DNA of 64,000 bases from an uncultured Bradyrhizobium sp. (GTDB lineage: Bacteria > Pseudomonadota > Alphaproteobacteria > Rhizobiales > Xanthobacteraceae), in assembly GCF_947648125.1 (NCBI RefSeq), contig NZ_CANSMR010000004.1:248001-312000 (forward strand), read 5' to 3'. This document shows, in pieces, positions 26,253 to 64,000 of this stretch (positions within the stretch are counted from its first letter, which is position 1; every line of letters begins with the position of its first letter). The translations under genes were made by a program, and so were the position numbers. Below the pieces are notes generated by a model. It had not been told where the DNA came from and ran no database searches. It saw only the letters and a program-made list of their open reading frames with translations.

Positions 26253-26485
26253 ACCCTCAAAAGGATTGCTCCGGAGCCGCCAGCGGCGGTCTCCCTGCAT
26301 CAAGTTAGGCAAATGGCGACAGGGCCCAATCCCGGAAGACGACAGGTTTTCCGGAACGCACTACGGCATTGTGCGCAATCGCACTTACATGGCCGTCGCT
26401 CCGGTGTGATCCGGGCATTTTCGAAAGAAAGCTCTGGGCGAACGACGTAACTGACCTGACATCGGTATCCGCAGAGGTCCCCGCG

Positions 26486-28801: not shown

Positions 28802-28804
28802 AGC

Positions 28805-29218
28805 ATGCAGACCAAGCTTCTCAAGACCCGGGCCGTCGGTATGACCGCAGAGACCTCGATTATCGTCACGCCCGAAATGACAGTCGGACATTTCGTTGCG
28901 GGAATGCCAAAGGTCTATGCGACGCCCATCATGATCCTTCACATGGAAATGGCGGCGGGACTGGCGATCGCTCCTGTGTTGCCGCCGGGCTACGTCGGCG
29001 TCGGAATGTCGGTTGAGATCCGGCATCTCGCTGCCACCCCGGTCGGAGGCAAAGTCCGTACGTTTGCGCGCGTCATAGGCGTTGAGGGGAAAAGCGTGAC
29101 GTTCGAGGTCGAGGCCTGGAACGATCACGGAAAGATCGGTGACGGCACGCATCGCCGCGGCATCGTCAATGTCGTTGAGTTCGAGAAGCGGTTCGGTGTT
29201 CCCGAGGTCCTGGCGTGA
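28805..29218 (+). CDS. Hotdog-fold thioesterase
   Basis: 137 residues with the layout of fluoroacetyl-CoA-type (FlK) thioesterases: VTPEMTVGHF near residue 20, then MEMAAGLAI with the catalytic-region Glu, VGVGMSVEIRHLAATPVGGKV, and HRRGIVNVVEFEKR at the C-terminus. Its ribosome site AAGGAGTAGAGC overlaps the stop of the YdeP-type gene, so both are one transcript. Probably hydrolyses a small acyl-CoA; the substrate is unknown. A link with oxalyl- or formyl-CoA chemistry is only a thought prompted by the oxalate decarboxylase next door. Confidence 0.85.
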   Translation: MQTKLLKTRAVGMTAETSIIVTPEMTVGHFVAGMPKVYATPIMILHMEMAAGLAIAPVLPPGYVGVGMSVEIRHLAATPVGGKVRTFARVIGVEGKSVTFEVEAWNDHGKIGDGTHRRGIVNVVEFEKRFGVPEVLA

Positions 29219-29322
29219 CTCTGACGTTTGACGCGCGTTCTCCCGCGGCCGGCGCGGCCAACCTTCGCCGTCACTCTGCCGAGCCGCCGATGCGCATTTT
29301 CGAAGGGGGCGCCACCGGCAGG

Positions 29323-30123
29323 TCAGACTCGCCCTTCAAAGCAGGTCGGCGACGACAGGCTGCCGCCCGTTAGCACGGGCATGTCGTTGATGCTGCGCCA
29401 ACGCCTCGGCGTGCAGCCTGCGAACCGCTTGAAGACGGTTGTGAAATGGGCTTGGGTCTGGAACCCGACGGTGAGCGCGATCTCGACGAGGGCCATCGTT
29501 GTGTCCCTCATTAACTCTTCCGCCCGTCGAACGCGCCGCTGTAGCAGAAACTCGTGCGGCCGCAGACCCGTCGCCACGCGGAACTGGGAGGCGAAGTGCA
29601 TCCGGCTGAGTCCCGCAACCCCGGCCAGATCGCACAAGGTGATCCTGGATGAGATGTGGGCATCGATATAGTCGACGACGCGCTTGAGGCGCCATTTCTG
29701 CAGAGCCTGAATCCGGCGGCCGTTTGCGGATGCCCGGACGGCCGCCGCCGCTCCTCCATGTACTGGCCGCAGGCCGGACTGCCTGATGGCAATCGCAACC
29801 CGAAGCGCCTCCGCAGACTGGCCGTCATTGCCTTGCTGCGCCAGCTTCAGGGCGTGAAGCAGCGACCGAGTGACGTCATCATCGGATTCGATCTCGGGGG
29901 ACATGTGCGGCAGCACCGGCATGACCTTCGCAAAGGCAGCCCTGTCATCAGCGCCATCCCGGCCTGAGATAGCTCCAGCAAACATGGGCTGCGGCTTGCA
30001 AGTCTGGACTGACATTCGAATCGCTCCCGAGGCGAAAATTCCAATCAGGCTTTCATCGCTTATGTAGGGCGGTCGGCCAAATGTCCCACTAAATTGCGAT
30101 TCATGAAGCGCCATCGATTCCAA
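29323..30123 (-). CDS. AraC-family transcriptional regulator
   Basis: 266 residues. The C-terminal 100 residues hold two helix-turn-helix motifs (RITLCDLAGVAGLSRMHFAS and MALVEIALTVGFQTQAHFTT) and the family signature ending FKRFAGCTPRRWR. The N-terminal 150 residues have no recognisable sensor domain. MESMALHES at 30123, MALHES at 30114 or MSVQTC at about 30015 could each be the start. It is convergent with the thioesterase gene and may control the oxalate/formate genes (inference). Confidence 0.85.
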   Translation of the reverse strand: MESMALHESQFSGTFGRPPYISDESLIGIFASGAIRMSVQTCKPQPMFAGAISGRDGADDRAAFAKVMPVLPHMSPEIESDDDVTRSLLHALKLAQQGNDGQSAEALRVAIAIRQSGLRPVHGGAAAAVRASANGRRIQALQKWRLKRVVDYIDAHISSRITLCDLAGVAGLSRMHFASQFRVATGLRPHEFLLQRRVRRAEELMRDTTMALVEIALTVGFQTQAHFTTVFKRFAGCTPRRWRSINDMPVLTGGSLSSPTCFEGRV

Positions 30124-30215
30124 ACGGACGAGACATCGACGCGTGCCGAGAGTGAGCCAGTTCGGTTGTGAATCGGCGGTTACTGCATCGCGCGCAAAAG
30201 GCTGCGATAGCGTGC

Positions 30216-30656
30216 TCAGTGTGGCGCAATCAAATCGAGTCGGGTGCTGCCCGGCGTTGCCGTGCCGACGGTAGCCGGCTTCGCGCCGCGCATGACGAAG
30301 ATATCCTGCTCCGCTTGGCTTACGATCTTCCGGGCGAGCTGTCGAAGCGCGTCATCGTGACCGTACTTCATTTCGGTGCGCGCAATGTCGATGACGCCCT
30401 GATGATGCGGAAGCATGATGTCGACGAAATCGCGATCGACGTCGCCGCTCGGCTTGGTGAGCAAGCTCCGGTTCATGTTGCTCATCGCGAGGTCGTTGTT
30501 GAAGAGCAACTGCCGCTCACCGACGTCGCTCACCGTCATGATGCGAGATCGATGCGGCGGGGACTGGGCCAGCGCGAATGACGTTGCCGTGACCGAGAGG
30601 CTGGTTGCCAGCGAGATGGCGCGTCTGCGCACGAATTCGCGGGAAAACAGCGGCAC
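30216..30656 (-). CDS. DUF305-family exported protein
   Basis: 146 residues. A signal peptide (about residues 10-30, ATSFALA-Q) precedes a ferritin-like helical DUF305 domain with the hallmark MLPHHQGVIDIARTE (His84, His85) and NNDLAMSNMNRSL upstream of it. DUF305 proteins are periplasmic and several are linked with copper handling; no direct evidence for metal here. It stands alone between the AraC gene and rpoH. Confidence 0.85.
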   Translation of the reverse strand: MPLFSREFVRRRAISLATSLSVTATSFALAQSPPHRSRIMTVSDVGERQLLFNNDLAMSNMNRSLLTKPSGDVDRDFVDIMLPHHQGVIDIARTEMKYGHDDALRQLARKIVSQAEQDIFVMRGAKPATVGTATPGSTRLDLIAPH

Positions 30657-30892
30657 GGCCTGCTCCAGAGCGTTGATTGATCGGATGGGCGTCGCGCTGG
30701 TGCAACCCCGGCCTCAGAGATGCCAAGAGTGATGCCCGCACTCAACTAAATACGGATTTAAGCTTTTGCCCGGTCAGGCGCGCTCTGCGCTGCTTAAAAG
30801 CGAATTCAGGTTTCTAAAGTCCATTTTAGTGGCTGTTCCGGCCGGGCGCTTCCTACAGTTGACGTGCCGGACCCAAAACGCAGGAGCAGAAG

Positions 30893-31792
30893 ATGAACGC
30901 CGTCGTCAACAGCAACCTGACCGGAGCACTGGTTCCGCAGCCGGTCGGTCTTCGCGCCTATTCCACAGCCATCGGCCGCTTTGGTCTGCTGGAGCGTGGC
31001 CGCGAGCAGCTGCTCGCGCGGCGTTGGCAAGAGGGGCGCGACAAGCGCGCGACGGACGAACTGATCACGACCCATCTTCGCCTGGCTGCAAAGGTGGCGC
31101 GAGGCTACAAAGGTTACGGCCTTCCGATGGCGGATTTGATCGCCGAAGCCAATCTGGGGCTTGTGATCGCTGCAGGTCGCTTCGAACCGGGATACGAAGC
31201 CCGGTTCTCGAGCTACGCCTTGTGGTGGATCAAGGCGACTATCCACGAGTACATCCTGCGCTCCTGGTCGCTGGTGAAGATTGGGACGACGGCCGCGCAG
31301 AAAAAGCTCTTCTTTCGCCTGCGTAGCGAAATGAGAAAGCTTGGGGGCAATTCGGCGATCCTTACCCCGGAAATGGCCCAGTCTGTTGCAGACAAGCTGA
31401 AAGTCAGCGTTCGTGACGTCGTCGAAATGGATTGCCGGCTCGGTGGCGACCTTTCGCTGAATACGCGGGTCGGAAATGAGGATCGTTCGGCCGAGTGGGA
31501 AGCTATGCTGGTCGACGAGAGCCCGGATGCGGAGGCGATCGTCGCTGAGCACGACGAGACGACCCGCAGGACGAGCGCTCTTCGCTCTGCACTGGATGTG
31601 CTGACGGAACGCGAACGGCACGTCTTCGTGGCCAGGCGTCTTGTGGAGCATCCGTTGACGCTCGATCAACTCGGCTGTGAATTATCGATCTCGGGTGAGC
31701 GCGTTCGGCAGATCGAAACGCGCGCCTTCGCGAAGGTCAGGCGGGCGACGATCGCAGCCACCAGGCCCGGCAACGATTCCTCGGAAGAATAG
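30893..31792 (+). CDS. rpoH: RpoH-type (sigma-32) RNA polymerase sigma factor
   Basis: 299 residues directing transcription of heat-shock and related stress genes. Regions 1.2-2.4 run from AYSTAIGRFGLL to FSSYALWWIKATIHEYILRSW; the RpoH box QKKLFFRLR is at residues 136-144; region 4 carries LTERERHVFVARRLVEHPLTLDQLG and SGERVRQIETRAFAKVR. CAGGAGCAGAAG precedes the ATG. Alphaproteobacteria usually carry several rpoH copies and this may be an accessory one. It lies 218 bases before an RND efflux operon. Confidence 0.93.
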   Translation: MNAVVNSNLTGALVPQPVGLRAYSTAIGRFGLLERGREQLLARRWQEGRDKRATDELITTHLRLAAKVARGYKGYGLPMADLIAEANLGLVIAAGRFEPGYEARFSSYALWWIKATIHEYILRSWSLVKIGTTAAQKKLFFRLRSEMRKLGGNSAILTPEMAQSVADKLKVSVRDVVEMDCRLGGDLSLNTRVGNEDRSAEWEAMLVDESPDAEAIVAEHDETTRRTSALRSALDVLTERERHVFVARRLVEHPLTLDQLGCELSISGERVRQIETRAFAKVRRATIAATRPGNDSSEE

Positions 31793-32010
31793 ACTACGGG
31801 AGCGCGGCGCGCGTGCGCGCGGTCTTGTTCGACTGAGTGAAGACCCGCAGCCGGTCACGGCTGCCGGAGTCGTAAGCGAACTGTGAAGCTACGTGAGGGC
31901 TTTGTCAGTTCTTTTTGCGCTCGAATGAACTTCAATCTAGTTGAGCGATCGGCTGATAGCCCTCATGTCTCCCCGAGGTCTCGCAACCGGGAGCTGGACA
32001 GGGATTTGAC

Positions 32011-35000
32011 ATGAGAATTGTTCGCTTCGCGCTGAGATTTCCGCATACCTTCTACGTGGTGGCGGCCCTGATCCTATTTCTCGGCGGTGCCGCGCTCTGG
32101 TCGATGCCGACCGACATCTTTCCGGAAATTCGCATTCCCGTGGTGACCGTCATCTGGCAGTACACCGGACTTTCCACGCCCGAGATGGAACAGCGCGTCG
32201 GCACCTACAGCCAGTACTCCATCAGCGCTAATGTCAATGGAATCAAGAGCATGGAATCGCAGACCCTCAATGGTCTGTCGGTCCAGAAAATCTATTTCCA
32301 GCCGGACGTCAATCTCGACCTCGCCATCGCGCAGATCGTCTCAGCGACAAATTCCATTCGTGCGTTGATGCCGCCGGGTATCCAGCCGCCGATTGTCGTT
32401 CAATTCAACGCCTCGAGCGTTCCTGTGCTCCAGCTCAGTCTGAACTCCGACAGTCTCAACGAGCAGCAGCTTTATGACTTCGGTATCTATCGCGTTCGCC
32501 AGCAGCTTGCTCCCGTTCCCGGTGTCACACTGCCGACGCCCGCCGGCGGCAAGTACCGGCAGATCATGGTGGACATCGATCCAGACAAGCTTCTGTCCCG
32601 CGGCCTGACGCCGCTCGACATCGTGAACGCGGTCAACACCCAGAACCTCACGCTGCCCTCGGGCACAGCCAAGATGGGAGACACGCAGTACACGGTGCGT
32701 ACCAATGCGACGCCGGCGACCATCGACGATCTCAACAATATGCCGGTCAAATTCAGCAACGGCGCGACAGTCTTGCTGCGCGACGTGGCCCAGGTGCGTG
32801 ACGGGTCGATGGTGCAGCAGAACGTTGTTCGCGAGGACGGCCATCGCGCGGTTCTGCTCAGCATCATCAAGAACGGAAACGCGTCGACTCTGGCGGTGGT
32901 CAATGGGGTGAAGAAAGCGCTAACGTCCATTCGCGCCGCTGCTCCGGCGGGGCTCAGGATCACCGAGCTGTTCGACCAGTCGGTCTTCGTGACGAACTCC
33001 GTGAACGGCGTGCTCCGGGAGGGAGCCATTGCGGCGGGTTTGACCGCGATGATGATCCTGCTGTTCCTGGGGTCCTGGCGGTCGACCCTGGTGGTGATGA
33101 TTTCCATCCCGCTCGCGATCCTATCGTCGCTTATTGTGCTCTATTTTCTTGGCGAGACCTTGAACACCATGACGTTGGGCGGTCTCGCCCTCGCGGTCGG
33201 CATTTTGGTCGATGATTCGACCGTCACGATCGAGAATACCCACCGGCTGTGGACGGAGGAGGGCATGCCGCTCGCCGACGCGACCTTGCATGGCGCCGCC
33301 GAGATTGCCGTCCCAACGCTGGTGTCGACACTGGCCATCAGCTGCGTGTTCACTTCGGTCGTATTCCTGGAGGGACCCGCGAAGTATCTCTTTACGCCAC
33401 TGGGTCTTTCCGTCGTCTTCGCGATGCTTGCGTCCTATGGGCTGTCTCGAACCCTGACGCCGATCACGATCGGGCTTCTGCTGAAGGGCGAGCGTCAGCA
33501 CGGGCACGGGGAAGTTGCCACCGGGTTGTTCTCGCGTCTGTCGGCAGCGTTCGAGCGCGGCTTCGAGCGGCTGCGCGGCGGTTACGCGCAGCTTCTGGCC
33601 CTGTTGCTTCGACGTCGCGCCATCGTGCCGGCCGTTGCGGTCCTGATCCTTGGTCTCGGTGCGGTGATGCTGAGCCTAGTCGGAAGGGATTTCTTTCCGC
33701 TGATCGACGGCGGCCAGATCCAGCTTCACGTGCGCGCGCCGGCGGGCACGCGCATTGAAAGCACCGAGGCGATCTTCCAGAAGGTCGAGGACAAGATCCG
33801 CGAGGTCATTCCGGAGAACGAGCGGTCGCTGATCGTAGACAATATTGGGCTGCCGGCGCGGGCTTACAACCTGGCCTTTGCCGATGGTTCGACGATCGGC
33901 ATTAATGACGGCGTCATCCTTGTCTCGCTCAAGGACGGCCACAGGCCGACCGCAGATTACATCAAGAAGCTGCGCCAGGTGCTGCCGGCGGCGTTCCCCG
34001 AGGACACTTTCTATTTCCAGGCGGCCGATATCGTCACGCAGATCCTGAACTTCGGGCTGCCGGCGCAGATCGACGTTCGAACGGTTGGTTATGGTACCAA
34101 CAATCTGGCTGTCGCCAAGGAGCTCCAGAAGCGTCTGGCTGCCATCCCGGGCATCGTTGATGCCCATCTCCAGCAGGAAATCGACGGTCCAGCGTTCTTC
34201 ACGGACATCGACCGGACCCGGGCGGCCCAGCTCGGCCTGAACGCCAGCACGGTGGCGACCAACATCAATGTGAGCCTCAGCTCGTCCGTGCAGGTGTCGC
34301 CGAATTTCTGGACCGATCTGAGCGCCGGCATTCCATACTATCTTGCCGTCCAGACGCCAGAGTACAGGATCAATTCGCTGAATGCGCTCGCAAATACGCC
34401 CGTCTCGACGTCGATTGCGGCGAACGGCCAGACGGTGCCGGGCATGCTGAGCAACATCGCGACGTTCAAGCGCGATACGGTGCCGACCAACGCCAACCAG
34501 AGCAACGTCCAGCCGGTCTATGAGGTCTATGCCAGCGTGCAGGGCCGCGACCTCGGCAGCGTAGCGGCCGAGATCGGCAAGGTCACCACCGAGCTGCAAA
34601 AGCAGCTGAAGCCTGGCAATTCCATTCAGGTGCTTGGTCAGATCCAGAGCATGAATGATTCCTTTCGGGACCTCGGCATCGGCCTGTTGTTCGCAGCGGT
34701 GCTGGTCTATCTCCTGATGGTCGTGAACTATCAGAATTTCGGCGATCCCTTTGTGGTGATCCTGGCGCTTCCGGCGACCCTCTGCGGGATCGTGACGATG
34801 CTGTTCATCACGGGGACGACGCTCAACGTGCCTTCGCTGATGGGCGCGATCATGTCGGTCGGCGTGGCCTCGGCAAATTCGATTCTGCTGGTGACTTTCG
34901 CTCGCGAACAGCAGCTGAAGGGGCATTCAGCGTTCGAGGCCGCGTTGAGCGCGGGCCACACCCGCATCCGTCCGGTGCTGATGACGGCTGCCGCAATGAT

Positions 35001-35193
35001 CGTAGGCATGATCCCGATGGCGATCGGTGGTGCCGGCGAGGAGCAGAATGCAGCACTCGCGCGTGCCGTCATCGGCGGATTGTTGTTCGCGACGCCCACG
35101 ACCCTGCTCATCGTTCCCTACCTGTTTGCCATGCTGCGCAAGGGCAACGACGGAAAGCGACACCATGGCGTATTCGAGGAATTGTCAACATGA
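32011..35193 (+). CDS. RND efflux permease (AcrB superfamily)
   Basis: 1060-residue inner-membrane pump with 12 transmembrane helices and two large periplasmic loops (about 40-330 and 560-870). The TM4 acidic pair is Asp401-Asp402 in VGILVDDSTVTIEN. The TM10 lysine of AcrB (SAKNA) is absent; the segment reads GVASANSILLVTFARE, as in a distinct RND subgroup. The start follows AGGGATTTGAC. The stop overlaps the adaptor start by four bases (ATGA). The order is permease then adaptor, the reverse of the cluster at 1-3070. Substrate unknown. Confidence 0.95.
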   Translation: MRIVRFALRFPHTFYVVAALILFLGGAALWSMPTDIFPEIRIPVVTVIWQYTGLSTPEMEQRVGTYSQYSISANVNGIKSMESQTLNGLSVQKIYFQPDVNLDLAIAQIVSATNSIRALMPPGIQPPIVVQFNASSVPVLQLSLNSDSLNEQQLYDFGIYRVRQQLAPVPGVTLPTPAGGKYRQIMVDIDPDKLLSRGLTPLDIVNAVNTQNLTLPSGTAKMGDTQYTVRTNATPATIDDLNNMPVKFSNGATVLLRDVAQVRDGSMVQQNVVREDGHRAVLLSIIKNGNASTLAVVNGVKKALTSIRAAAPAGLRITELFDQSVFVTNSVNGVLREGAIAAGLTAMMILLFLGSWRSTLVVMISIPLAILSSLIVLYFLGETLNTMTLGGLALAVGILVDDSTVTIENTHRLWTEEGMPLADATLHGAAEIAVPTLVSTLAISCVFTSVVFLEGPAKYLFTPLGLSVVFAMLASYGLSRTLTPITIGLLLKGERQHGHGEVATGLFSRLSAAFERGFERLRGGYAQLLALLLRRRAIVPAVAVLILGLGAVMLSLVGRDFFPLIDGGQIQLHVRAPAGTRIESTEAIFQKVEDKIREVIPENERSLIVDNIGLPARAYNLAFADGSTIGINDGVILVSLKDGHRPTADYIKKLRQVLPAAFPEDTFYFQAADIVTQILNFGLPAQIDVRTVGYGTNNLAVAKELQKRLAAIPGIVDAHLQQEIDGPAFFTDIDRTRAAQLGLNASTVATNINVSLSSSVQVSPNFWTDLSAGIPYYLAVQTPEYRINSLNALANTPVSTSIAANGQTVPGMLSNIATFKRDTVPTNANQSNVQPVYEVYASVQGRDLGSVAAEIGKVTTELQKQLKPGNSIQVLGQIQSMNDSFRDLGIGLLFAAVLVYLLMVVNYQNFGDPFVVILALPATLCGIVTMLFITGTTLNVPSLMGAIMSVGVASANSILLVTFAREQQLKGHSAFEAALSAGHTRIRPVLMTAAAMIVGMIPMAIGGAGEEQNAALARAVIGGLLFATPTTLLIVPYLFAMLRKGNDGKRHHGVFEELST

Positions 35194-36455
35194 CAGATGT
35201 GGATGTGCGACCGGACGAGAGCTTCCGGGATGTTGAGCATCCGGGCAATGCAACCGGCCCGCTCTTGAGGGCCGAGAGCAGACCTGAACGCCGCTCTGGA
35301 AAAGCAATCTTCGGGACGACGGTGCTGCTGTTGCTCGTTGGAGGGCTCGGTGTCGGTGGCTGGCGGCACTACCAGGCGCAGCGCGAAGTCGCCGCGACGG
35401 CTGAGCAGGCGCGCACATCGGTGCCCGATGTTCGGGTCGCGACGGTTCGTGCCAGCGACAGCACGTTGAAGGTCACGCTGCCGGCGACGACGGCTGCTTT
35501 CGAGGCTGCCAACATCTTCGCTCGGACCAGCGGCTATGTGGAAAAGCGCTATGTCGATATCGGGGATCGGGTCAAGGCGGGCGCGCTGCTTGCCGAGATC
35601 GTCGCGCCGGAGCTCGATCACCAGATCGCACAGGCCCAGGCGACTCTGGCCCAGAGCCAAGGGACCATGCAGCAAACGCAGGCAAGCCGCGAACTCGCTG
35701 AGGTCACCAACGCGCGCGACAGCAACCTGGTCAAGCAGGGGTGGCTGACGGCTCAACAGGGCGACAATGATCGCCTCACCCTGCGTGCGCAGCAAGCGGC
35801 AGAGCAGGCAGCGAAGTCGAATATCGCGGCCCAGCAAGCCCAGATCAAGGTTCTGGAACAAGACAAGGCCTATCAGCGCGTGGTGGCTCCGTTCGACGGA
35901 GTGATCACCCAGCGCAATATCGACAATGGCAGTCTCGTGCAATCGGGATCGACATTCATGTTCACGTTGATGCATGCCGATGTTATCCGCACGCAGGTAT
36001 TCGTGCCCCAGGACGAGGCGTTCGGCGTGGAGCCCGGGGTCGAGGCCGTGATCCGGGTTCCCGAGATCCCCGGGCGGGCCTTTCCGGGAAAAGTCACACG
36101 CATCGCGACGGCACTGCAACCCGGCAGCCGTACGTTGCTGACCGAGATCGACGTTCCCAATCCGGACGGCGCGCTTCAGCCGGGGATCTATTGTACCGTC
36201 GAGTTGCGCATTCCACGCAGGACGCCGTCAGTGATCATTCCGGCCGACGCCATCATATTCGATGAGAATGGTCTGCATGTCGCGGTCGTGGAAGACGGCG
36301 CAGTTCATTTGCGCAAGATTTCGATCGCGCGCGATTTCGGCAAGGAGGTCGAAGTGCACGATGGCGTTAAGCCAGGCGATCAAGTCGTTCTCAATCCGAC
36401 GGTGAGCCTGAGCGAGGGAAGCCGGGTTATGGTTCGCGGGCCGCAGACGAGTTGA
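35190..36455 (+). CDS. RND efflux periplasmic adaptor (membrane fusion protein)
   Basis: 421 residues. An N-terminal cytoplasmic stretch of about 35 residues precedes one anchor helix (AIFGTTVLLLLVGGLGVGGW); then come the lipoyl half-motif (RTSGYVEKRYVDIGDRVKAG), a Gln/Ala-rich alpha-hairpin (about 150-220), and the second lipoyl half (VVAPFDGVITQRNIDNGSLV). The C-terminal beta-barrel and membrane-proximal domains follow. It is translationally coupled to the permease upstream. No outer-membrane channel gene follows; instead a convergent exported protein gene lies 200 bases beyond. Confidence 0.93.
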   Translation: MTDVDVRPDESFRDVEHPGNATGPLLRAESRPERRSGKAIFGTTVLLLLVGGLGVGGWRHYQAQREVAATAEQARTSVPDVRVATVRASDSTLKVTLPATTAAFEAANIFARTSGYVEKRYVDIGDRVKAGALLAEIVAPELDHQIAQAQATLAQSQGTMQQTQASRELAEVTNARDSNLVKQGWLTAQQGDNDRLTLRAQQAAEQAAKSNIAAQQAQIKVLEQDKAYQRVVAPFDGVITQRNIDNGSLVQSGSTFMFTLMHADVIRTQVFVPQDEAFGVEPGVEAVIRVPEIPGRAFPGKVTRIATALQPGSRTLLTEIDVPNPDGALQPGIYCTVELRIPRRTPSVIIPADAIIFDENGLHVAVVEDGAVHLRKISIARDFGKEVEVHDGVKPGDQVVLNPTVSLSEGSRVMVRGPQTS

Positions 36456-57544: not shown

Positions 57545-57723
57545 TTTCTACTTGCTGAACCTTGGAGTGTGATCTCAATTATCTTCTTGGCGATCATCTC
57601 GGCCACTGGATCGCGGCGGTCGGTGATGCCGATGGCGCGCAAGGTTTGCGCGTAGGCCGCCGTCATGCGTCGGATTTCTTCCGGCTCCGCCGCTAGGTTT
57701 TGCAGCAACCGGTATAGCGACAT
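57532..57723 (-). CDS. Small cytoplasmic protein, function unknown
   Basis: 63 residues, MSLYRLLQNLAAEPEEIRRM at the start, then an amphipathic helical segment (TAAYAQTLRAIGI, DPVAEMIAKKIIEI). No signal peptide or membrane helix. It lies seven bases downstream of the gene at 57731-58201 on the same strand, so probably co-transcribed. No family recognised, but the composition is protein-like. Confidence 0.6.
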   Translation of the reverse strand: MSLYRLLQNLAAEPEEIRRMTAAYAQTLRAIGITDRRDPVAEMIAKKIIEITLQGSASRKAAE

Positions 57724-57730
57724 GGCTAGT

Positions 57731-58201
57731 CTACCCGGGTGCGAAGCCGGCGAACTGCCGCGGCCGAGGCCTGAGTTGCGGCGGCTGCCACGGCCACTGC
57801 TGCGCCGGCGTGATCTGTCGTGGCAGAGCGGCGTATCGCCGATGCGCCGCGGCTCGCGCCACCTTCTTTTTCAGCGAGGGCTTTTTGGTCGGTGTCGGCT
57901 CGATCTGCGCGTAGGCGGCCAGCGGCCCTGCGGCAGCGGGCGATGCGTCCGCGTTCGAGACCGGTGGCGGAGGCGGCGGAGCCGCTACAGCCGTAGCTGA
58001 GGTCGGCGGGACGACAGTCGGGATGCTGGCGTCGATCACCACACGCTCCGGCCCCTTCCGGGTCGTGTTGATCCGGATGATCGACCTGTCGATGTCACCC
58101 CGTTGGGGCGGTTCGGCAGGCTTCGGCAGCATGACGTTGCTGACCAGGAGCAGTGCCAGAAGCACGCCACCGACTGTGACGAAATAACGAAGAATAGGCA
58201 T
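57731..58201 (-). CDS. Membrane-anchored Pro/Ala-rich protein, function unknown
   Basis: 156 residues from MPILRYFVTVGGVLLALLLV, an N-terminal anchor helix. The rest is a Pro/Ala-rich periplasmic region (VAAPPPPPPVSNADASPAAA) with a basic patch (KKPSLKKKVARAAAHRR) and a Gln/Pro/Arg-rich tail. The longer frame to 58297 is rejected because those extra residues are a translation of a dispersed repeat (58237-58340). The ribosome site is weak. Function unknown. Confidence 0.6.
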   Translation of the reverse strand: MPILRYFVTVGGVLLALLLVSNVMLPKPAEPPQRGDIDRSIIRINTTRKGPERVVIDASIPTVVPPTSATAVAAPPPPPPVSNADASPAAAGPLAAYAQIEPTPTKKPSLKKKVARAAAHRRYAALPRQITPAQQWPWQPPQLRPRPRQFAGFAPG

Positions 58202-58236
58202 GGCGCACCCAATCGACGATGTCCGGCCCCACGAAG

Positions 58237-58340
58237 GCGGTCCCGACCAAGCAGTCAAGGTCGGCCAGGACCGCGCTTGCCATCCAATGTCATCCACGGC
58301 CTGAACGGCGCGAAAGTGCCGAAAGTCACGACGCGTGGGG
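58237..58340. repeat. Dispersed hairpin-plus-tail repeat, copy A
   Basis: The head (58237-58274) folds as GCGGTCC-CGACC with GGTCG-(4-base bulge)-GGACCGC around a 10-base loop, a 12-bp stem in all. The tail from TCCAATGTCATCCACGG to GCGTGGGG differs from that of copy B (60706-60831) at only three positions over about 59 bases. It lies just upstream of the minus-strand gene starting at 58201. Confidence 0.75.
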
Positions 58341-58429
58341 AGAGTTTGACGTGACGAATGGCACTACCGGGAACACGGATGACATTCGTCAATATCGCGA
58401 CAGAGATGGATTCTCCGAAGGGGCCATCA

Positions 58430-58609
58430 ATGATCGATATCGCAATTGCTGCCGTAGCCTTCGTCTCTGTCGCAATAGCCGCTACAGTTGCGGCTATGGA
58501 TTATGGCGCCGTCGAACGTCATGTTGATGATCACGGTGCGGATCACGACGCCGCGCGGAGCAGCCCTGATCTGAGGTCGGGGTCGAGGTCACGCCGCCGC
58601 GACGGCTAA
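58430..58609 (+). CDS. Small membrane protein, function unknown
   Basis: 59 residues. MIDIAIAAVAFVSVAIAATVAAMD gives one N-terminal membrane helix, followed by a His/Asp-rich stretch (ERHVDDHGADHD) and a basic Arg/Ser tail. GAAGGGG lies upstream of the ATG. The start at 58358 adds non-hydrophobic residues and is less likely. No family recognised. Confidence 0.45.
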   Translation: MIDIAIAAVAFVSVAIAATVAAMDYGAVERHVDDHGADHDAARSSPDLRSGSRSRRRDG

Positions 58610-58704
58610 TTGAATAGGCTGAGGCTCGTGCGGCGGAAAGCCAAGCGGAGCGCGTGGTGGAATAGGGGCGGCGCCCCACAACTAACCATCGGAGGCGTTT
58701 ACCA

Positions 58705-58953
58705 ATGATAGGTGCTGGTCTTTTTGCGGCGGCGATGCTGCTGGTCGTCTCGACGGTCGATGCTACCGCGTCCGAGAGGTCACCGAAGAGCTGGTTTTCA
58801 AGAGTTTCTTGCGGTGTGGTTCGGTATTACGTCGCCAAATACGATGCGAGCACAGCAGAGGCTTGGGCTAGGAACAACGGAGCGACGGACGCTCAAATCG
58901 AGGCCGCACGGCGATGCCTTGTCGGACAGCAATTGGCTGCTTCAAAGCACTAA
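58705..58953 (+). CDS. Small exported protein, function unknown
   Basis: 82 residues. Signal peptide MIGAGLFAAAMLLVVSTVDA, cleavage near ATA-S; mature part with VSCGVVRYYVAKYDASTAE and WARNNGATDAQIEAARRC, two cysteines and helical character. ATCGGAGGCG upstream of the ATG supports translation. The pattern (CGxVRxYV ... AxxxGxTxxQIxxARRC) looks like a genuine small conserved family, which I cannot name. Confidence 0.65.
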   Translation: MIGAGLFAAAMLLVVSTVDATASERSPKSWFSRVSCGVVRYYVAKYDASTAEAWARNNGATDAQIEAARRCLVGQQLAASKH

Positions 58954-59246
58954 CAGTCACCACAACGTCGCATTCAACGCCAGCCTGAAAAAAGCGGCGG
59001 CGCGCGACAGCCTAAGCCGACGGGCCGGCCTGGGGACGGCTGCTTCAATGAAGTCGCCAGACAGGTGGATCGTGCGCGCGTCCGCAATCAAGATCATTGA
59101 TGACGATTCACGTCCTCGTCCGGTATTTCATCCCGCGATTTGAGCGCGTAAAGTAGTGTAAGCATGCGGCGCTATCTTGTTCCGCAATTGAAACTTCGCA
59201 GCCGGTCCCCAGGCCGCCCGTTTTGACCGCAGGCAAGAGTTAGCTC

Positions 59247-59429
59247 GTGAACTCGACACGCCGCACTCCTTCAGGACTCGCCCAGAATTCTCGGCAGAAT
59301 GCGGTGACATTCCCGCCCCAACTCGCCGAGACAATCGCCGAGAATGCCCGCCTCAAGACCATTGCCATCACCGTCATGCTTGAAATCGCTGTTCTCCGGG
59401 AACGGTTGGAGCCGCCGCTCGGCGAGTAA
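59247..59429 (+). CDS. Hypothetical 60-residue protein
   Basis: MNSTRRTPSGLAQNSRQNAV followed by an amphipathic helix (QLAETIAENARLKTIAITVMLEIAVLRERLE). Helical content is plausible but no ribosome site stands out. Its last codons and stop lie in the first bases of the duplicated segment at 59419-59800. Confidence 0.35.
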   Translation: MNSTRRTPSGLAQNSRQNAVTFPPQLAETIAENARLKTIAITVMLEIAVLRERLEPPLGE

Positions 59430-59800
59430 GGGCGTGGCCTGTACTCACAAAAGGGACGGCTCGGCCGAGGGGTAGTCTATGGGGTGGCCGAGCCGTCTAG
59501 AGAAGCCGAAGTGTGAGTTTCCGGCCAGCACGATGTGCGACTCCGATTCTGGCATTACGAGGGCGCGCGGTCCCGGCCTTTACTGCGTTCAGGGCTCCAA
59601 ATCGTCCGAAATCCACGCCTCATCGCCTGCGACAATCATAGAGAATGTCAGCAGCGTCGTTATGCTGTAGATCGCTAAAATTGCTGGGATCATCCGAGTC
59701 ATTCCGTCCGACCGCAATGAAGCTCGAGAGCGAAGTGCGCGGTCCATGATAATCCGGGGCTGGCGGATGAACCTATCAGGGACCGCGTTCCGCGCCGCTG
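59419..59800. repeat. Diverged segmental duplication, copy 1
   Basis: From TCGGCGAGTAAGGGCGTGGCC to CCGCGCCGCTG this 382-base stretch matches 60867-61434 in order, including the hairpin at 59455-59497, a GATTCTGGCAT block and the small membrane frame 59589-59813. Copy 2 carries about 200 additional bases. Confidence 0.8.
59455..59497. ncRNA. Conserved 12-bp hairpin with 19-base loop (copy 1)
   Basis: GACGGCTCGGCC pairs perfectly with GGCCGAGCCGTC around the loop GAGGGGTAGTCTATGGGGT. The equivalent hairpin at 60904-60946 has a nearly identical loop but a stem with two paired changes, both keeping base pairing. Called as a structured element; whether it is a transcribed RNA, a terminator or a DNA palindrome cannot be told. 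Confidence 0.5.
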
Positions 59801-59813
59801 GCGGGTGTTTCAT
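59589..59813 (-). CDS. Candidate small membrane protein (paralogue of 61234-61410)
   Basis: 74-residue frame. The core MTRMIPAILAIYSITTLLTF with FSMIVAGDEAWISDD predicts one membrane helix. The equivalent frame in the duplicated copy stays open over the same stretch with synonymous and conservative changes (LLTFSM against LLAFSV), which favours coding. The true start may be the internal ATG before IPAILA. No ribosome site is evident. Confidence 0.4.
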   Translation of the reverse strand: MKHPPAARNAVPDRFIRQPRIIMDRALRSRASLRSDGMTRMIPAILAIYSITTLLTFSMIVAGDEAWISDDLEP

Positions 59814-59981
59814 AAGTAGCGAACGGTCAGAAAGGTTCCGGCAGGATTAAAAAACGTCGCGAACCACGAGTCCGGGCGTCTGCATCAATTGCCTGTGCGA
59901 TGATCACGCGTACCCGTTTTGGGATAATAACTCGCACCGTAGGCATAACCCTCACCGCAGTGTCGGCCTATATTAGGGGTC

Positions 59982-60125
59982 TCAGATCATTGAGCTGCGG
60001 GAGCGCGAGTCCCGCTGTCGTCGCCGGCTCCTTTCCCATGCGGCCTTGATCTCAAACACCGCAACGATTGCCGACCACAAAGCCAGGCCCGCTACGCCCA
60101 TCATGAAAAAATTTGCTTCAGTCAT
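59982..60125 (-). CDS. Candidate 47-residue small membrane protein
   Basis: MTEANFFMMGVAGLALWSAI followed by VAVFEIKAAWERSRRRQRDS: one membrane helix then a strongly basic tail, a standard layout for a small single-pass inner-membrane protein with its C-terminus in the cytoplasm. Too short for common gene callers. No clear ribosome site. Confidence 0.4.
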   Translation of the reverse strand: MTEANFFMMGVAGLALWSAIVAVFEIKAAWERSRRRQRDSRSRSSMI

Positions 60126-60270
60126 CAGACAAACCCACAATTTGGCCTCGCCCATGAACGGCTAACGCGGCATCCGGTTCCGCTGCGCGGTCAGAATTTG
60201 GGCGCGTGATGGGGCGGTGGTGCAGGATGCGAAGGCGAGGAGTGGCGTAGGAAAAGCACGCTACTCGGCG

Positions 60271-60666
60271 TCATAGCATGCATAACCATTTGGTTTGGTG
60301 CATATCGAGCGCACGAGCTGCACCGCGTGTCAGATCAATCGTCACCCCGCGCGCAAATGGACCTCGATCGTTGATTATGACAGTGACAGACTTTCCATTC
60401 TCGGGATTCATGAGCGTTACGCGCGACCCGAACGGCAGTGTGCGGTGTGCGGCCGTCAGGCCGCTCACGTCGATTACCTCACCATTCGCTGTACGTCGCC
60501 CCAAAGAATAGAAGCTTGCGACGATGTGCTGTCCCGAGCACGGGCTCTGAGGCTTTCGGGTATGCGCAAAAAACCAATCGAAGCCCCGACTGTGAGCGGG
60601 GGGCGCGATGAGCCATGCCGACACAAGGCCAACGCCGCAAAGTCGTCTGGCAGCCCGGCAGCTCAT
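60271..60666 (-). CDS. RlpA-like double-psi beta-barrel protein
   Basis: 131 residues from MSCRAARRLCGVGLVSAWLI, a signal peptide. The RlpA domain follows: IVASFYSLGRRTANGEVIDVSGLTAAHRTLPFG (given in parts ASFYSLGRRTANGE and LTAAHRTLPFGS), RVTLMNPENGKSVTVIINDRGPF and DLTRGAARALDM. RlpA proteins bind or cleave peptidoglycan stripped of peptides at the septum; the His in AAHRTLP and Asp in NDRGPF fit the active-site positions. The frame to 60774 runs into a dispersed repeat and is rejected as an extension. Confidence 0.85.
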   Translation of the reverse strand: MSCRAARRLCGVGLVSAWLIAPPAHSRGFDWFFAHTRKPQSPCSGQHIVASFYSLGRRTANGEVIDVSGLTAAHRTLPFGSRVTLMNPENGKSVTVIINDRGPFARGVTIDLTRGAARALDMHQTKWLCML

Positions 60667-60705
60667 GTCGATTTGTCTTTGTAGGGCGCAACCATAGGAA
60701 AGGGG

Positions 60706-60831
60706 GCGTGGTCCCGGCCTGGCTGTGGACTGGGATAGGGGGCCGGGACCACGCTTGCCACCGCGCTTGGCCATCCAATGTCATCCACGGTCTGAACGGC
60801 GCGAAAGTGCCGAAAGTCATGATGCGTGGGG
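60706..60831. repeat. Dispersed hairpin-plus-tail repeat, copy B
   Basis: The head is a near-perfect 14-bp stem (GCGTGGTCCCGGCC with GGCCGGGACCACGC) around a 21-base loop, 60706-60754. The tail TCCAATGTCATCCACGG... to GCGTGGGG is almost identical to copy A at 58237-58340. It lies just upstream of the RlpA-like gene on the minus strand. Confidence 0.8.
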
Positions 60832-60903
60832 CTGATCTCTTTCCCGGGGACGGCTACCGCAGGCTTTCGGCGAGTAAGGGCGTGGCCGATACCCACGAAA
60901 AAG

Positions 60904-60946
60904 GACGGCCCGACCTTGGGGTAGTCTATGGGGTGGTCGGGCCGTC
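60904..60946. ncRNA. Conserved 12-bp hairpin with 19-base loop (copy 2)
   Basis: GACGGCCCGACC pairs perfectly with GGTCGGGCCGTC around TTGGGGTAGTCTATGGGGT. Against the hairpin at 59455-59497 the stem has changed T to C with A to G opposite and G to A with C to T opposite, while 17 of 19 loop bases are unchanged. Confidence 0.5.
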
Positions 60947-61063
60947 AAATGCCGGCGCCCACGTGTGAGAAGGCTCCAAGCCACGTGATCACGGATTACG
61001 ATTCTGGCATCATGAGGGCACGGTCACAGCCTTGGGCTGGCCGATGGTCTGGGACTGCGCTGG

Positions 61064-61153
61064 TTACTGCGCCAGCATGGCTATCCCAATGATGATGAGT
61101 GGACTCAGTCCGATCAACACAACGCAAACGCTGGAGAGAACAGTACTGCCCAT
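61064..61153 (-). CDS. Candidate 29-residue single-helix membrane peptide
   Basis: MGSTVLSSVCVVLIGLSPLI continuing IIGIAMLAQ is almost entirely one hydrophobic helix. AAAGGG lies seven bases before the ATG. It lies in the part of duplication copy 2 that is absent from copy 1. Such peptides are often missed by annotation; some act as toxins or regulators, but nothing here shows which. Confidence 0.35.
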   Translation of the reverse strand: MGSTVLSSVCVVLIGLSPLIIIGIAMLAQ

Positions 61154-61233
61154 CGAACTACCCTTTGAAAATTGGAATCCTACGCAAGGTAGAACTCGGT
61201 AGGCCAGTGCAGTTTGTGCCAACGGCGTGGCAT

Positions 61234-61410
61234 TCATTCGTCCGAAATCCGCGTCTCGTCGCCTGGGACAATCACGGAGAACGCGAGCAGCGTCGTTATG
61301 CTGTAGATCGCTAAAATTGCTGGAATCATCCGAGTCGCCCCGTTGGGCGGCAATGAAGCCCCGAAGCGAAGTGCATGGTCCGTGATGACGGGGGCTGGCG
61401 GATGAACCAT
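61234..61410 (-). CDS. Candidate small membrane protein (paralogue of 59589-59813)
   Basis: 58 residues: MVHPPAPVITDHALRFGASL, then TRMIPAILAIYSITTLLAF and a short polar end (VIVPGDETRISDE). The membrane core is nearly identical to the paralogue in the first copy of the duplication, and the frame is kept with no indel across the shared part. The ATG is created by a one-base difference from copy 1. No clear ribosome site. Confidence 0.4.
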   Translation of the reverse strand: MVHPPAPVITDHALRFGASLPPNGATRMIPAILAIYSITTLLAFSVIVPGDETRISDE

Positions 61411-61657
61411 CAGAGACCGCGCTCCGCGCCGCTGTCCCTTTACTGCGCCCGTGCTCTCCTCTCCATTGCAGAGAATCTGCCGAAGGTCACTTCTCAGTCC
61501 TTTGGATTATGACGAACGTTATCTTTTATGAACGTCAATTGAACAACCAGCTCCGAAAAATTCCGCGTTTCGTCGTTCGCTTGCCTTCGTGAAACCATCA
61601 ATTTGTCTCGGCCGACCATTCGAATTGATGCGCGTGATTCACGGGAAACACGCTGAT

Positions 61658-62092
61658 ATGGAGAAAATGCTTATGTTGAATCGTCGGGCTATCATGACAC
61701 TTGTCGTGAGCACGAGCCTATTGGCAACCGCAGGGTTGGCCGTGGCCAAGAACGCCCACCACAATAACGGCCATAACCTTCTTGGTGAGAAGATTCACAA
61801 GAACGGGAAGCATGAAATCGGAAAGATCGGCAACAACGCCGTCGTTGCCGAAGTTAGCAATGACAAGGTGGTGGGAATGAGCGCCGGCAATTTGCCGGCG
61901 CAGAAGGTGAAATCCAGCAAGAAGATGGCGGGGGCCGACACGACGCAGGTTGCCGCGAACGGTCCGATTAAGCTTGCCCAGGTGGGCGATTACTACGCGT
62001 ACTGCTTCGATACCGGCATTGACGTGGAGTGCTATTGGTACCCGGCGACTGACGTGATCGTAACCGATCCGTGGTCGCCCTATCCGTATTGA
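61658..62092 (+). CDS. Exported protein of unknown function
   Basis: 144 residues. N-terminal signal (about MLNRRAIMTLVVSTSLLATA, cleavage near AVA-K), then a Lys/His/Asn-rich section (NAHHNNGHNLLGEKIHKNGK), a Val/Lys segment (EVSNDKVVGMSAGNLPAQKV), and a Tyr/Trp/Asp end (YCFDTGIDVECYWYPA, WSPYPY) with two cysteines. MEKMLM at 61658 or MLNRR at 61673 (GGAG nine bases upstream) could be the start. A terminator-like hairpin follows at 62147. No family recognised. Confidence 0.65.
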   Translation: MEKMLMLNRRAIMTLVVSTSLLATAGLAVAKNAHHNNGHNLLGEKIHKNGKHEIGKIGNNAVVAEVSNDKVVGMSAGNLPAQKVKSSKKMAGADTTQVAANGPIKLAQVGDYYAYCFDTGIDVECYWYPATDVIVTDPWSPYPY

Positions 62093-62146
62093 GTTCCAAG
62101 TCCAAGTATCGGCCCGCGGCGGATGCTCGTCGCCCCCAAAACGAAT

Positions 62147-62170
62147 GAGGTCGCCAATTTTGGCGGCCTC
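62147..62170 (+). terminator. Terminator-like hairpin after the 61658-62092 gene
   Basis: GAGGTCGCCA and TGGCGGCCTC pair over 10 bp (one G-T) with an ATTT loop, 54 bases after the stop. The following bases are not a clean T-run. Confidence 0.4.
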
Positions 62171-62321
62171 TGCTCGTCGAAAGACTTAGCGCTTGAGCTT
62201 GCCCAGCGCGTAGCCGGGATGGCCGGAAACGGATCCGTTGGTCTGCATTTGCCCGCAACAGTCGGAAAGCATCCGCCGCGTCCTTAGACTTTTGCTCTCT
62301 CGACAAGATCATCCCCGGAGG

Positions 62322-62434
62322 GCGTGGTCCCGGCCTTGGGACAGTCCTAGGGTTGGCCGAGACCGCGCTCGCCACCGCCGCTGGCCATCCAATGTCAACG
62401 CACGACTGGATGCCGCGGGAGTGTCGAAAGTCAT
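62322..62434. repeat. Dispersed hairpin-plus-tail repeat, copy C
   Basis: The head (62322-62368) pairs GCGTGGTCCCGGCC with GGCCGAGACCGCGC (one C-A mismatch, one G-T) around a 19-base loop TTGGGACAGTCCTAGGGTT, like the loops at 59455 and 60904. The tail (CCGCTGGCCATCCAATGTCA ... GTCGAAAGTCAT) is a more diverged form of copies A and B. It lies between convergent genes. Confidence 0.7.
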
Positions 62435-62479
62435 ATAGAGCGTAGTTGCTCCACCGAGCGGGGCGCCAGCCGCAGCCGC

Positions 62480-62584
62480 TCATTGATACGCGAGAGTTAA
62501 ACACGTGATGAGGTAGATCGTCCCGGCGACCACCAACGCGGTGACGCCAATCGAGAAAAGGACGCGCCACACGGTAGAGGTCAT
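62480..62584 (-). CDS. Candidate 34-residue single-helix membrane protein
   Basis: MTSTVWRVLFSIGVTALVVA followed by GTIYLITCLTLAYQ: one transmembrane helix with a short polar N-terminus. AAGGCCAAGAA lies just before the ATG. The longer frame to 62686 adds Arg-rich, non-protein-like sequence. No family recognised. Confidence 0.45.
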   Translation of the reverse strand: MTSTVWRVLFSIGVTALVVAGTIYLITCLTLAYQ

Positions 62585-62768
62585 TTCTTGGCCTTGAGCC
62601 CCCGATCTCGACCAGCGAAGGCCGTGCCGCGTCAATCTCACTGAAAGGCGGCACCACACAAGGGGTTCAAAAGGGACATGCATCACAATGGCCCGTCACC
62701 GCGTGCGGCACCGGAAGCAAACGTAATGGTAGGAGCTGTTCGTTTGATTCTCCGGCATCATAAAAGAG

Positions 62769-62794
62769 AAACGGCGCCATTGCGGGCGCCGTTT
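62769..62794. terminator. Bidirectional rho-independent terminator
   Basis: AAACGGCGCC and GGCGCCGTTT form a perfect 10-bp stem with a 6-base loop. T-rich sequence follows on both strands (TTTGATTGATTT on plus, TTTCTCTTTTATG on minus). It isolates the RND gene at 62960 from the repeat-rich region. Confidence 0.65.
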
Positions 62795-62938
62795 GATTGA
62801 TTTGCTTCAGAATCCGCGCTGCGGACGCACTATGGGTGCATTTGCGGAAAGCCGCCTCTACCTCAAGTACTTGCGTCGAATCTCTAAATTGACTCAATCA
62901 GCTTATTCACGAGGTGTTCAGCCTCACACTCGTAGTTT

Positions 62939-62958
62939 AACCTCTGAGAGGAGAGGTT
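62939..62958 (+). promoter_or_regulatory. Hairpin covering the ribosome site of the RND permease
   Basis: AACCTCT (62939-62945) pairs with AGAGGTT (62952-62958); the right arm is the Shine-Dalgarno sequence and the ATG follows two bases later. In the folded form translation would be hindered. Only seven base pairs. Confidence 0.3.
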
Positions 62959-62959
62959 T

Positions 62960-64000
62960 ATGAACCTAGCTGGGCCATCGCTGCGCCGACCTCTGACCGT
63001 TGTAGTCGCAATACTAGCGGTCGCGCTGGCCTCAATTCTGGGGCTGCAGCGGATGCCCAAAGACGTGCTTCCGAACCTGAACGTCCCGACAATCTACGTT
63101 GCGCAAGCCTACGGAGGCATGGACCCGGCTCAGATGGAGGGCTACCTCGCGTTCTATTTCGAATATCATTTCCTCTACATAACCGGAATCCAGCACGTCG
63201 AGTCGAAGTCGATCCAGGGCGCGGCCCTGTTGGAACTGCAGTTCCATCCCGGCACGGATATGTCGCAGGCGATGGCGGAGACCGTCGCCTATGTGAACCG
63301 CGCGCGGGCGTTCATGCCGCCCGGCACGTTGCCGCCGTTCATCACGCGCTTCGACCCGGGCAGCGTTCCGGTGGGACATCTGGTGTTCTCTAGCGAGACC
63401 CGCTCGATCGAGGTGTTGCAGGACGCGGCGTTGAACCTCGTGCGACCGCTGTTCGCGACCCTGCCGGGCGTATCTGCTCCGCCTCCGTTCGGTGGCAACG
63501 CGCGCAGCGTCGTGGTCAACCTGAAACCGGAGCGGCTGCGTTCCTATCATATGAGTCCTGAAGACGTCGTTGCCGCAATTAGTGCTGCCAACGTCGTGAG
63601 CCCGTCGGGGAACGTGACGATCGGTGGCAGCTATCCGCTGGTGCCCGTCAATTCAGTCGCGGGCGACGTCAAAGCCCTCGAAGCCGTACCCATCAAGAAC
63701 GGCAAATTCCCCGCCGTATTCGTCCGCGACTTGGCGGAGGTCGTTGACAGTTCGGACATCGTGACGAGTTACGCGCTCGTCAATGGCAAGCGGGCCGTCT
63801 ACGTGCCCGTGACAAAGCGGGCAGACGCCTCGACGATCGATGTCGCAACACTTGTCAAGGACAGTCTGCCGCGTTTCCAGGGCGTCCTCCCGTCTGGCGT
63901 GACGGTCAGCTACGAGCTCGACCAATCGCCCTATGTCACCCGCGCCCTGGCGGGGCTGCCCATCGAGGGCGTGATCGGGGCTTTGTTGGCCGGGCTCATG
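62960..64000 (+). CDS. RND efflux permease (3' end outside window)
   Basis: First 347 residues of an AcrB-superfamily permease: MNLAGPSLRRPLTVVVAILA (TM1), KDVLPNLNVPTIYVAQAYGGMDP, then the first periplasmic porter domain (GIQHVESKSIQGAALLELQF as a stretch, MPPGTLPPFITRFDPGSVP) up to the start of TM2 at the window edge. GAGAGGAGAGG precedes the ATG. It belongs to a different RND subgroup from the one at 32011 (the YGGMDPAQMEGYL segment). No adaptor gene lies upstream; one may follow beyond the window. Confidence 0.93.
   Translation, partial: MNLAGPSLRRPLTVVVAILAVALASILGLQRMPKDVLPNLNVPTIYVAQAYGGMDPAQMEGYLAFYFEYHFLYITGIQHVESKSIQGAALLELQFHPGTDMSQAMAETVAYVNRARAFMPPGTLPPFITRFDPGSVPVGHLVFSSETRSIEVLQDAALNLVRPLFATLPGVSAPPPFGGNARSVVVNLKPERLRSYHMSPEDVVAAISAANVVSPSGNVTIGGSYPLVPVNSVAGDVKALEAVPIKNGKFPAVFVRDLAEVVDSSDIVTSYALVNGKRAVYVPVTKRADASTIDVATLVKDSLPRFQGVLPSGVTVSYELDQSPYVTRALAGLPIEGVIGALLAGLM

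Follow-up and report, generated by a model that had tools for sequence, protein, structure and literature searches.

Hairpins H1 and H2 probably belong to a small, clade-specific family of folded RNA signals located beside small genes. The main form of this family is a leader of approximately 120 nt upstream of start codons, in which a box, RTGACTTTCGGCAC, is followed by a 14-bp hairpin. Pairing, conservation, placement, orientation, and U-tracts were established for the hairpins, and from sequence comparison we consider it moderately likely that they form a transcribed, cis-acting family comprising 5' leaders and a derived terminator form. A curious hairpin pair in 64 kb of DNA from an uncultured Bradyrhizobium sp. 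(hereafter the window, to which all positions refer unless stated otherwise) thus becomes a defined, searchable RNA family in Bradyrhizobium, represented by two covariance models and 23 aligned leaders. A single hairpin module is found before unrelated small genes and, in altered form, after others.

Both H1 (59455..59497, minus strand) and H2 (60904..60946, minus strand) are located where the initial annotation had placed them, and have the perfect 12-bp stems and 19-base loops that it described (minus-strand loop of H1, ACCCCATAGACTACCCCTC). The two stems differ only in the 6th and 3rd pairs counted from the loop, and compensation is complete at both positions (minus strand, T-A/C-G and G-C/A-T); the loop core of 17 bases, GGGGTAGTCTATGGGGT, is identical, again as had been reported. 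Four random changes on 24 stem bases would fill exactly two whole pairs with a probability of 0.006, even before the new bases are required to pair. Relatives contain a halfway state for each change: U.G in L025 (genome G049), where H1 has U-A and H2 has C-G, and G.U in L037 (genome G010), where H1 has G-C and H2 has A-U. Perfect 12-bp stems with loops of 3-25 bases occur at 5 distinct sites in the 64-kb window, 3 of them in the H1/H2 cluster, and the corresponding counts in ten dinucleotide shuffles of the window are 1, 0, 0, 0, 0, 0, 0, 3, 0, and 0. Folded as minus-strand RNA, H1 and H2 have z-scores of -6.4 and -6.6; the plus-strand values are -5.5 and -4.1. With up to two mismatches allowed, the loop core was found in three places in the whole genome, all of them exact, two being H1 and H2.

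On the minus strand the H1 stem is followed by the tract CCUUUU (59449..59454), the H2 stem by CUUUUU (60898..60903), and the stems of L025 and L037 run into CC and six T. Since their minus-strand stems run into U-tracts, these four hairpins look like intrinsic terminators; in all of them (4/4) a run of 4-6 T is no more than two bases away from the stem, and H1 and H2 combine a stable GC-rich hairpin with a close U-tract. Among more distant terminator-like hairpins, the one in G043 has 4 T and the one in G171 has no T-run longer than 2. The four hairpins resemble intrinsic terminators in the GC-rich stem followed by 4-6 U, but differ from them in the C-rich loop of 18-19 bases, which is common to leaders without a U-tract. 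The 19-base loop of H1 and H2 is long for an intrinsic terminator, and a terminator scan with loops of 3-8 bases listed neither hairpin.

H1 and H2 are carried by the two copies of a diverged local duplication (59396..59800 and 60844..61434), in which BLAST detected two blocks, 59396-59580 vs. 60844-61033 (72% identity) and 59602-59800 vs. 61238-61434 (85% identity). A hydrophobic ORF of 34 aa (MIPAILAIYSITTLL..., 59589..59693, minus strand) lies upstream of H1, and its second copy of 31 aa (61234..61329, minus strand) upstream of H2. The 34-aa ORF has no Pfam match, and both window copies look partly decayed. Small ORFs are found upstream, on the minus strand, of all four terminator-type hairpins; in G010 and G049 the ORF has 95 aa. 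In both copies of the duplication the hydrophobic ORF is preceded by a further hairpin type, with a GCGCGGTCCCTGAT-like stem and a loop containing TTCATCCGCCAGCCCC (59745-59803 and 61380-61440), which recurs in G010 (L037, about 2190-2300, reverse strand). A half hairpin arm at 59565-59579 is joined, at GCGCCCTCGT, to the end of a gene that has been lost; this sequence occurs at both places in G010, which suggests a direct-repeat deletion.

In the leader form, the minus strand reads box RTGACTTTCGGCAC, a spacer of about 30 nt, a conserved 14-nt pre-stem, and the 14-bp hairpin; the box is given as a conserved 20-nt element 5' of the GC-rich stem. BLAST between loci shows that leader-type copies have about 115 nt in common, comprising the hairpin and a flank ending in GCCGAAAGTCA. 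The hairpins are located roughly 20-90 nt before the start codon, and their loops usually carry two C-runs. Three leaders, all on the minus strand, were found in the window. Leader H4 (60697..60820, model match E 2.7e-23) has the box ATGACTTTCGGCAC at 60807-60820 and a hairpin at 60706-60754 with a perfect 14-bp stem and a 21-base loop. Leader H5 (62313..62434, E 3.9e-20) contains a box and the hairpin 62322-62368, whose inner part had been noted before as a third hairpin; the 19-base loop was confirmed, and the full stem has 14 bp, including two non-Watson-Crick pairs. The 58-kb leader (58227..58329, E 3.6e-14) has its hairpin at 58237-58274, with a short 10-base loop lacking C-runs. The H4 and 58-kb hairpins are additions to those listed in the initial annotation.

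H4 and the 58-kb leader still head an ORF. The H4 hairpin is followed, 39 nt downstream of its end, by an RlpA-type ORF of 131 aa (60271..60666, minus strand; Pfam DPBB_1 PF03330, E 9.4e-18). About 35 nt separate the 58-kb hairpin from an ORF of 156 aa (MPILRYFVTVGG..., 57731..58201, minus strand), which has a hydrophobic stretch at its N-terminus. No such gene is now present behind H5 or behind C15, a leader elsewhere in the same genome. The stretch adjoining H5 (62256..62316, minus strand) has 85% identity to DNA of G004 (L027) located just past the 3' end of an 82-aa-family gene. As the adjoining DNA matches the far side of that locus, H5 seems to have lost its gene, and the gene that it once headed appears to have been deleted.

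On contig C8 of the same genome, a leader precedes an 82-aa ORF without a Pfam match, its hairpin ending 30 nt short of the start. A search of 265 genus genomes with the 82-aa protein gave matches in at least 122, of which 30 loci were listed and judged by reading the 175 nt upstream of the start. Among these 30 loci, box and hairpin were present within the 175 nt in all 17 orthologs with at least 87% identity, and in none of 13 loci with 58-70% identity. G004 has neither gene nor leader at the 82-aa locus; its leader elsewhere (L027) precedes a paralogous gene with 61% identity. The placement and orientation of the leader before the coding start of the 82-aa gene are constant across species. 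Leaders with both elements are likewise located before a presumed RlpA-type ORF in G151 (likeness judged by eye) and before a 36-aa hydrophobic ORF in G108. Related hairpins without a clear box precede the 95-aa ORF in G010 (twice), G049, and G108. Two RlpA-type cases are degenerate: that of G108 has the box, no such hairpin in the predicted fold, and only a 66-aa frame, and that of G049 has the box with a different hairpin. The leaders draw attention to small ORFs that match no family and may be genuine genes.

The 17 orthologous leaders are strongly conserved in parts. Their 14-bp stem is paired in 237/238 cells (99.6%); 10 of the 14 pairs never vary, the others gain or lose a G.U, and a single break occurs, in G112. 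The two-helix structure pairs 95% of cells, as compared with 35-51% when it is slid. The mean pairwise identity, with gaps counted as differences, is 0.967 for the box, 0.983 for the pre-stem, and 0.975 and 0.946 for the stem arms, vs. 0.713 at four-fold sites of the 82-aa gene; the corresponding values are 0.700 for the spacer, 0.696 for the loop, and 0.404 for the 60 nt that lie upstream. Given the nearly invariant stem, sequence is conserved in these orthologs as well as pairing. The initial annotation had read the loop as conserved, which holds for its two C-runs, kept in 15/17 ortholog loops, but not for the loop as a whole, which at 69.6% identity is conserved no better than neutral sites and, the C-runs excepted, drifts at about the neutral rate. 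Two C-runs were also present in 14 of 16 other hairpin loops in a hand-made list, and are absent from the loops of the 58-kb leader and of G151. Loop length varies from 11 to 21 across the 17 orthologs and from 10 to 23 across copies.

Selection on structure, proposed in the initial annotation, is supported by the stem pairing in 237/238 cells against 71% identity at four-fold sites, together with the G.U intermediates between H1 and H2; stem variation without compensation, which the same annotation had set against the proposal, was hardly seen. The 17 near-invariant orthologs show no covariation above shuffles (386/500 as high), since their stem varies so little. In the 23 leaders covariation is weakly above shuffles on three measures (36/500 as high) and not on pair types (500/500 as high), and two pairs have a change on both sides. 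Pairing in the leaders appears to be under selection, as supported by the stem comparison, with covariation itself weak or absent.

Inverted repeats are known to homogenise, and the perfectly complementary arms of H1, H2, and H4 could reflect quasi-palindrome correction, i.e., template switching between arms, which would have made the matching changes in place of selection. Imperfect pairs nevertheless persist, one G.U in 15/17 orthologs and another in 8/17, and changes are far fewer in the stem than at neutral sites, so that we regard this origin as improbable. A less easily dismissed possibility, though still a rather doubtful one, is a DNA-level regulatory region, in which box and inverted repeat would constitute an operator or an unusual promoter and pairing would be incidental to a palindromic site. 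The sequence conservation of box (0.967) and pre-stem (0.983), common to several loci, keeps this reading alive, and the 10 invariant stem pairs and the location upstream of start codons agree with it. Against it, the arms are 10 to 23 bases apart in different copies, and loop lengths of 11-21 bases among the orthologs fit an RNA hairpin more readily than a DNA operator of rigid build; further, the H1 and H2 stems still pair although their sequence has changed, and each runs into a U-tract. Stem pairs that depart from Watson-Crick pairing are mostly G.U when read on the minus strand (10 distinct vs. 4 in the opposite sense, counted in 17 hand-chosen hairpins), a lean that reaches only p = 0.09. 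Gene orientation, the U-tracts, and this G.U lean favour RNA of the minus strand.

The initial annotation had alternatively suggested a palindrome moved by a REP-type transposase. Such a mobile palindromic repeat (REP/REPIN or MITE-like) could account for similar hairpins at several unlinked places, for homology that, in some pairs, breaks off abruptly at the base of the hairpin, and for the CGTC at the ends of H1 and H2; the abrupt breaks, however, may be deletions of the following gene, and the CGTC lies inside the paired stem rather than in an unpaired tag, with GTAG inside the loop. Moreover, model matches number only 7 in the genome and occur in 20 of 265 genus genomes (both lower bounds), the hairpins have a single orientation, on the coding strand, wherever a gene follows, and 17 species have orthologs of the copy that precedes the 82-aa gene. 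A REP-type element was rejected because of this copy number, distribution, and placement, and we consider it highly improbable. The published Bradyrhizobium REPs considered here are abundant and unlike the present family in either sequence or architecture. In the available text of PMC5082802, Br-REP1 (about 200 sites in USDA 110) and Br-REP2 (at least 50 sites) are described in 3' UTRs; they resemble the present family as non-coding palindromes of the same genus that form RNA stem-loops, but have another consensus and far more sites than the 7 model matches found here, and most of the present copies are located upstream of a start codon. GTAG- and CGTC-tagged REPs, according to the available text of PMC3733652, are short palindromes reported in Bradyrhizobium, many of them plausibly transcribed; H1 and H2 share with them the palindromic form and the terminal CGTC. 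The CGTC families described there are high-copy, mostly head-to-head dimers with an unpaired tag, stems of 8-9 bp, and loops mostly of 4-5 bases (other loops occur in Bradyrhizobium CGTC-1), in contrast to the few copies, stems of 12-14 bp, loops of 10-23 (mostly 18-21) bases, and paired CGTC observed here. As a separate observation, a palindrome GTCGTCCCGGC with varied loops that looks like a REP is present in several genus genomes (L029, L030, L031, L033, and L042).

For the transcribed hairpin family, we propose that transcription would proceed along the minus strand and that the hairpins would function in cis, as RNA elements. The 5' leader, with its conserved box, 14-bp GC-rich stem, and usually an exposed loop with two C-runs, would stand before small or envelope-type genes. 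H1 and H2 would be a derived form located 3' of small ORFs, serving as intrinsic terminator and mRNA 3' end. Selection would keep the stem paired, and in leaders also its sequence, leaving the loop free except for the C-runs. A putative trans partner, protein or RNA, may read the stem or the C-runs and thereby tune stability or translation. A more speculative and rather unlikely extension is a clade-specific post-transcriptional regulon, in which a single trans partner (a G-rich RNA or a protein) would recognise the leader-loop C-runs of unrelated small envelope-type genes, while the same module would serve again as a 3' terminator releasing a small RNA with a C-run loop. The family offers a direct test of whether leader and terminator hairpins have a common recognition partner.

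Several more specific roles were considered for the leader. A sigma-70 scan of window positions 57600-62700 gave two sites, as many as in shuffles and neither at a leader; a sigma-54 spacing in the box, judged by eye, does not fit. A coding explanation of the 5' box (start MTFGTF or VTFGTF) was rejected, as the reading frame is not kept across orthologs, being interrupted by indels in the loop. In the fold of one sequence the box pairs with the Shine-Dalgarno/start region; neither this pairing nor one between the post-stem CU tract and the Shine-Dalgarno sequence shows covariation. Covariation thus lends no support to direct masking of the ribosome site by the leader.

Covariance model 1, built from five hairpins, gave six matches in the own genome at E <1e-6, five of which are its own members. 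Of 60 genus genomes, 14 contain matches to it at E <=0.01, several being other palindromes. Model 2 (R2) was built from the 23 leaders. It matched at least 7 places in the own genome, at least 20 of 265 genus genomes at E <=0.001, and at least 2 of 248 genomes of the taxonomic family, namely the own genome and one weak case outside the genus (G351, E 8e-4), which was taken as chance. The R2 counts are lower bounds, because the scans scored only the best 13-14 first-look candidates per genome under strict filters. A scan of 8 genomes for the box with two mismatches allowed yielded 20 matches vs. 1 for the reversed pattern; they include a few new leaders and others without such a hairpin. A loose stem pattern in 4 genomes gave 47-64 matches per genome vs. 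7-24 for the reversed pattern, among the matches listed; although above this control, the matches were mostly judged by eye to be chance. The exact loop pattern had 3 matches in the named genomes, all taken as chance, with no hairpin arms seen by eye within 120 nt on each side.

No Rfam family matched the 64-kb window at the gathering score, and up to E 5 the C8 leader and positions 58000-63000 gave only sub-threshold matches to unrelated families. ROSE elements are cis-regulatory 5' leader RNAs of alphaproteobacteria. The present family is similar to such leader RNAs in being a conserved structured leader before the start codon, but differs from them in having no meaningful Rfam match and no supported Shine-Dalgarno sequestration. 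It is not described in the available texts of PMC5082802 or PMC3733652, and may conceivably be identical with one of the BjsR small RNAs aligned in the supplements of PMC5082802.

No leader was found in the plasmid collection, where the sole match, to a plasmid of Bradyrhizobium barranii, extends over 44% of the query, inside its gene part. As to the window itself, the best plasmid match is to Bradyrhizobium sp. 184 (34% of 24 kb, at 83% identity); two pieces of 25005-36455 are 83% identical to a plasmid region of this strain whose annotation comprises an RND efflux permease, an FdhF/YdeP oxidoreductase, and rpoH. A box-like sequence without a hairpin precedes similar DNA in three genomes (L167, L171, and L175), and near-identical palindromes (AGAGCATGATCCGATTGAATCGGATCATGCTCT in L166) are located close to box-like sites in two genomes (L166 and L170).
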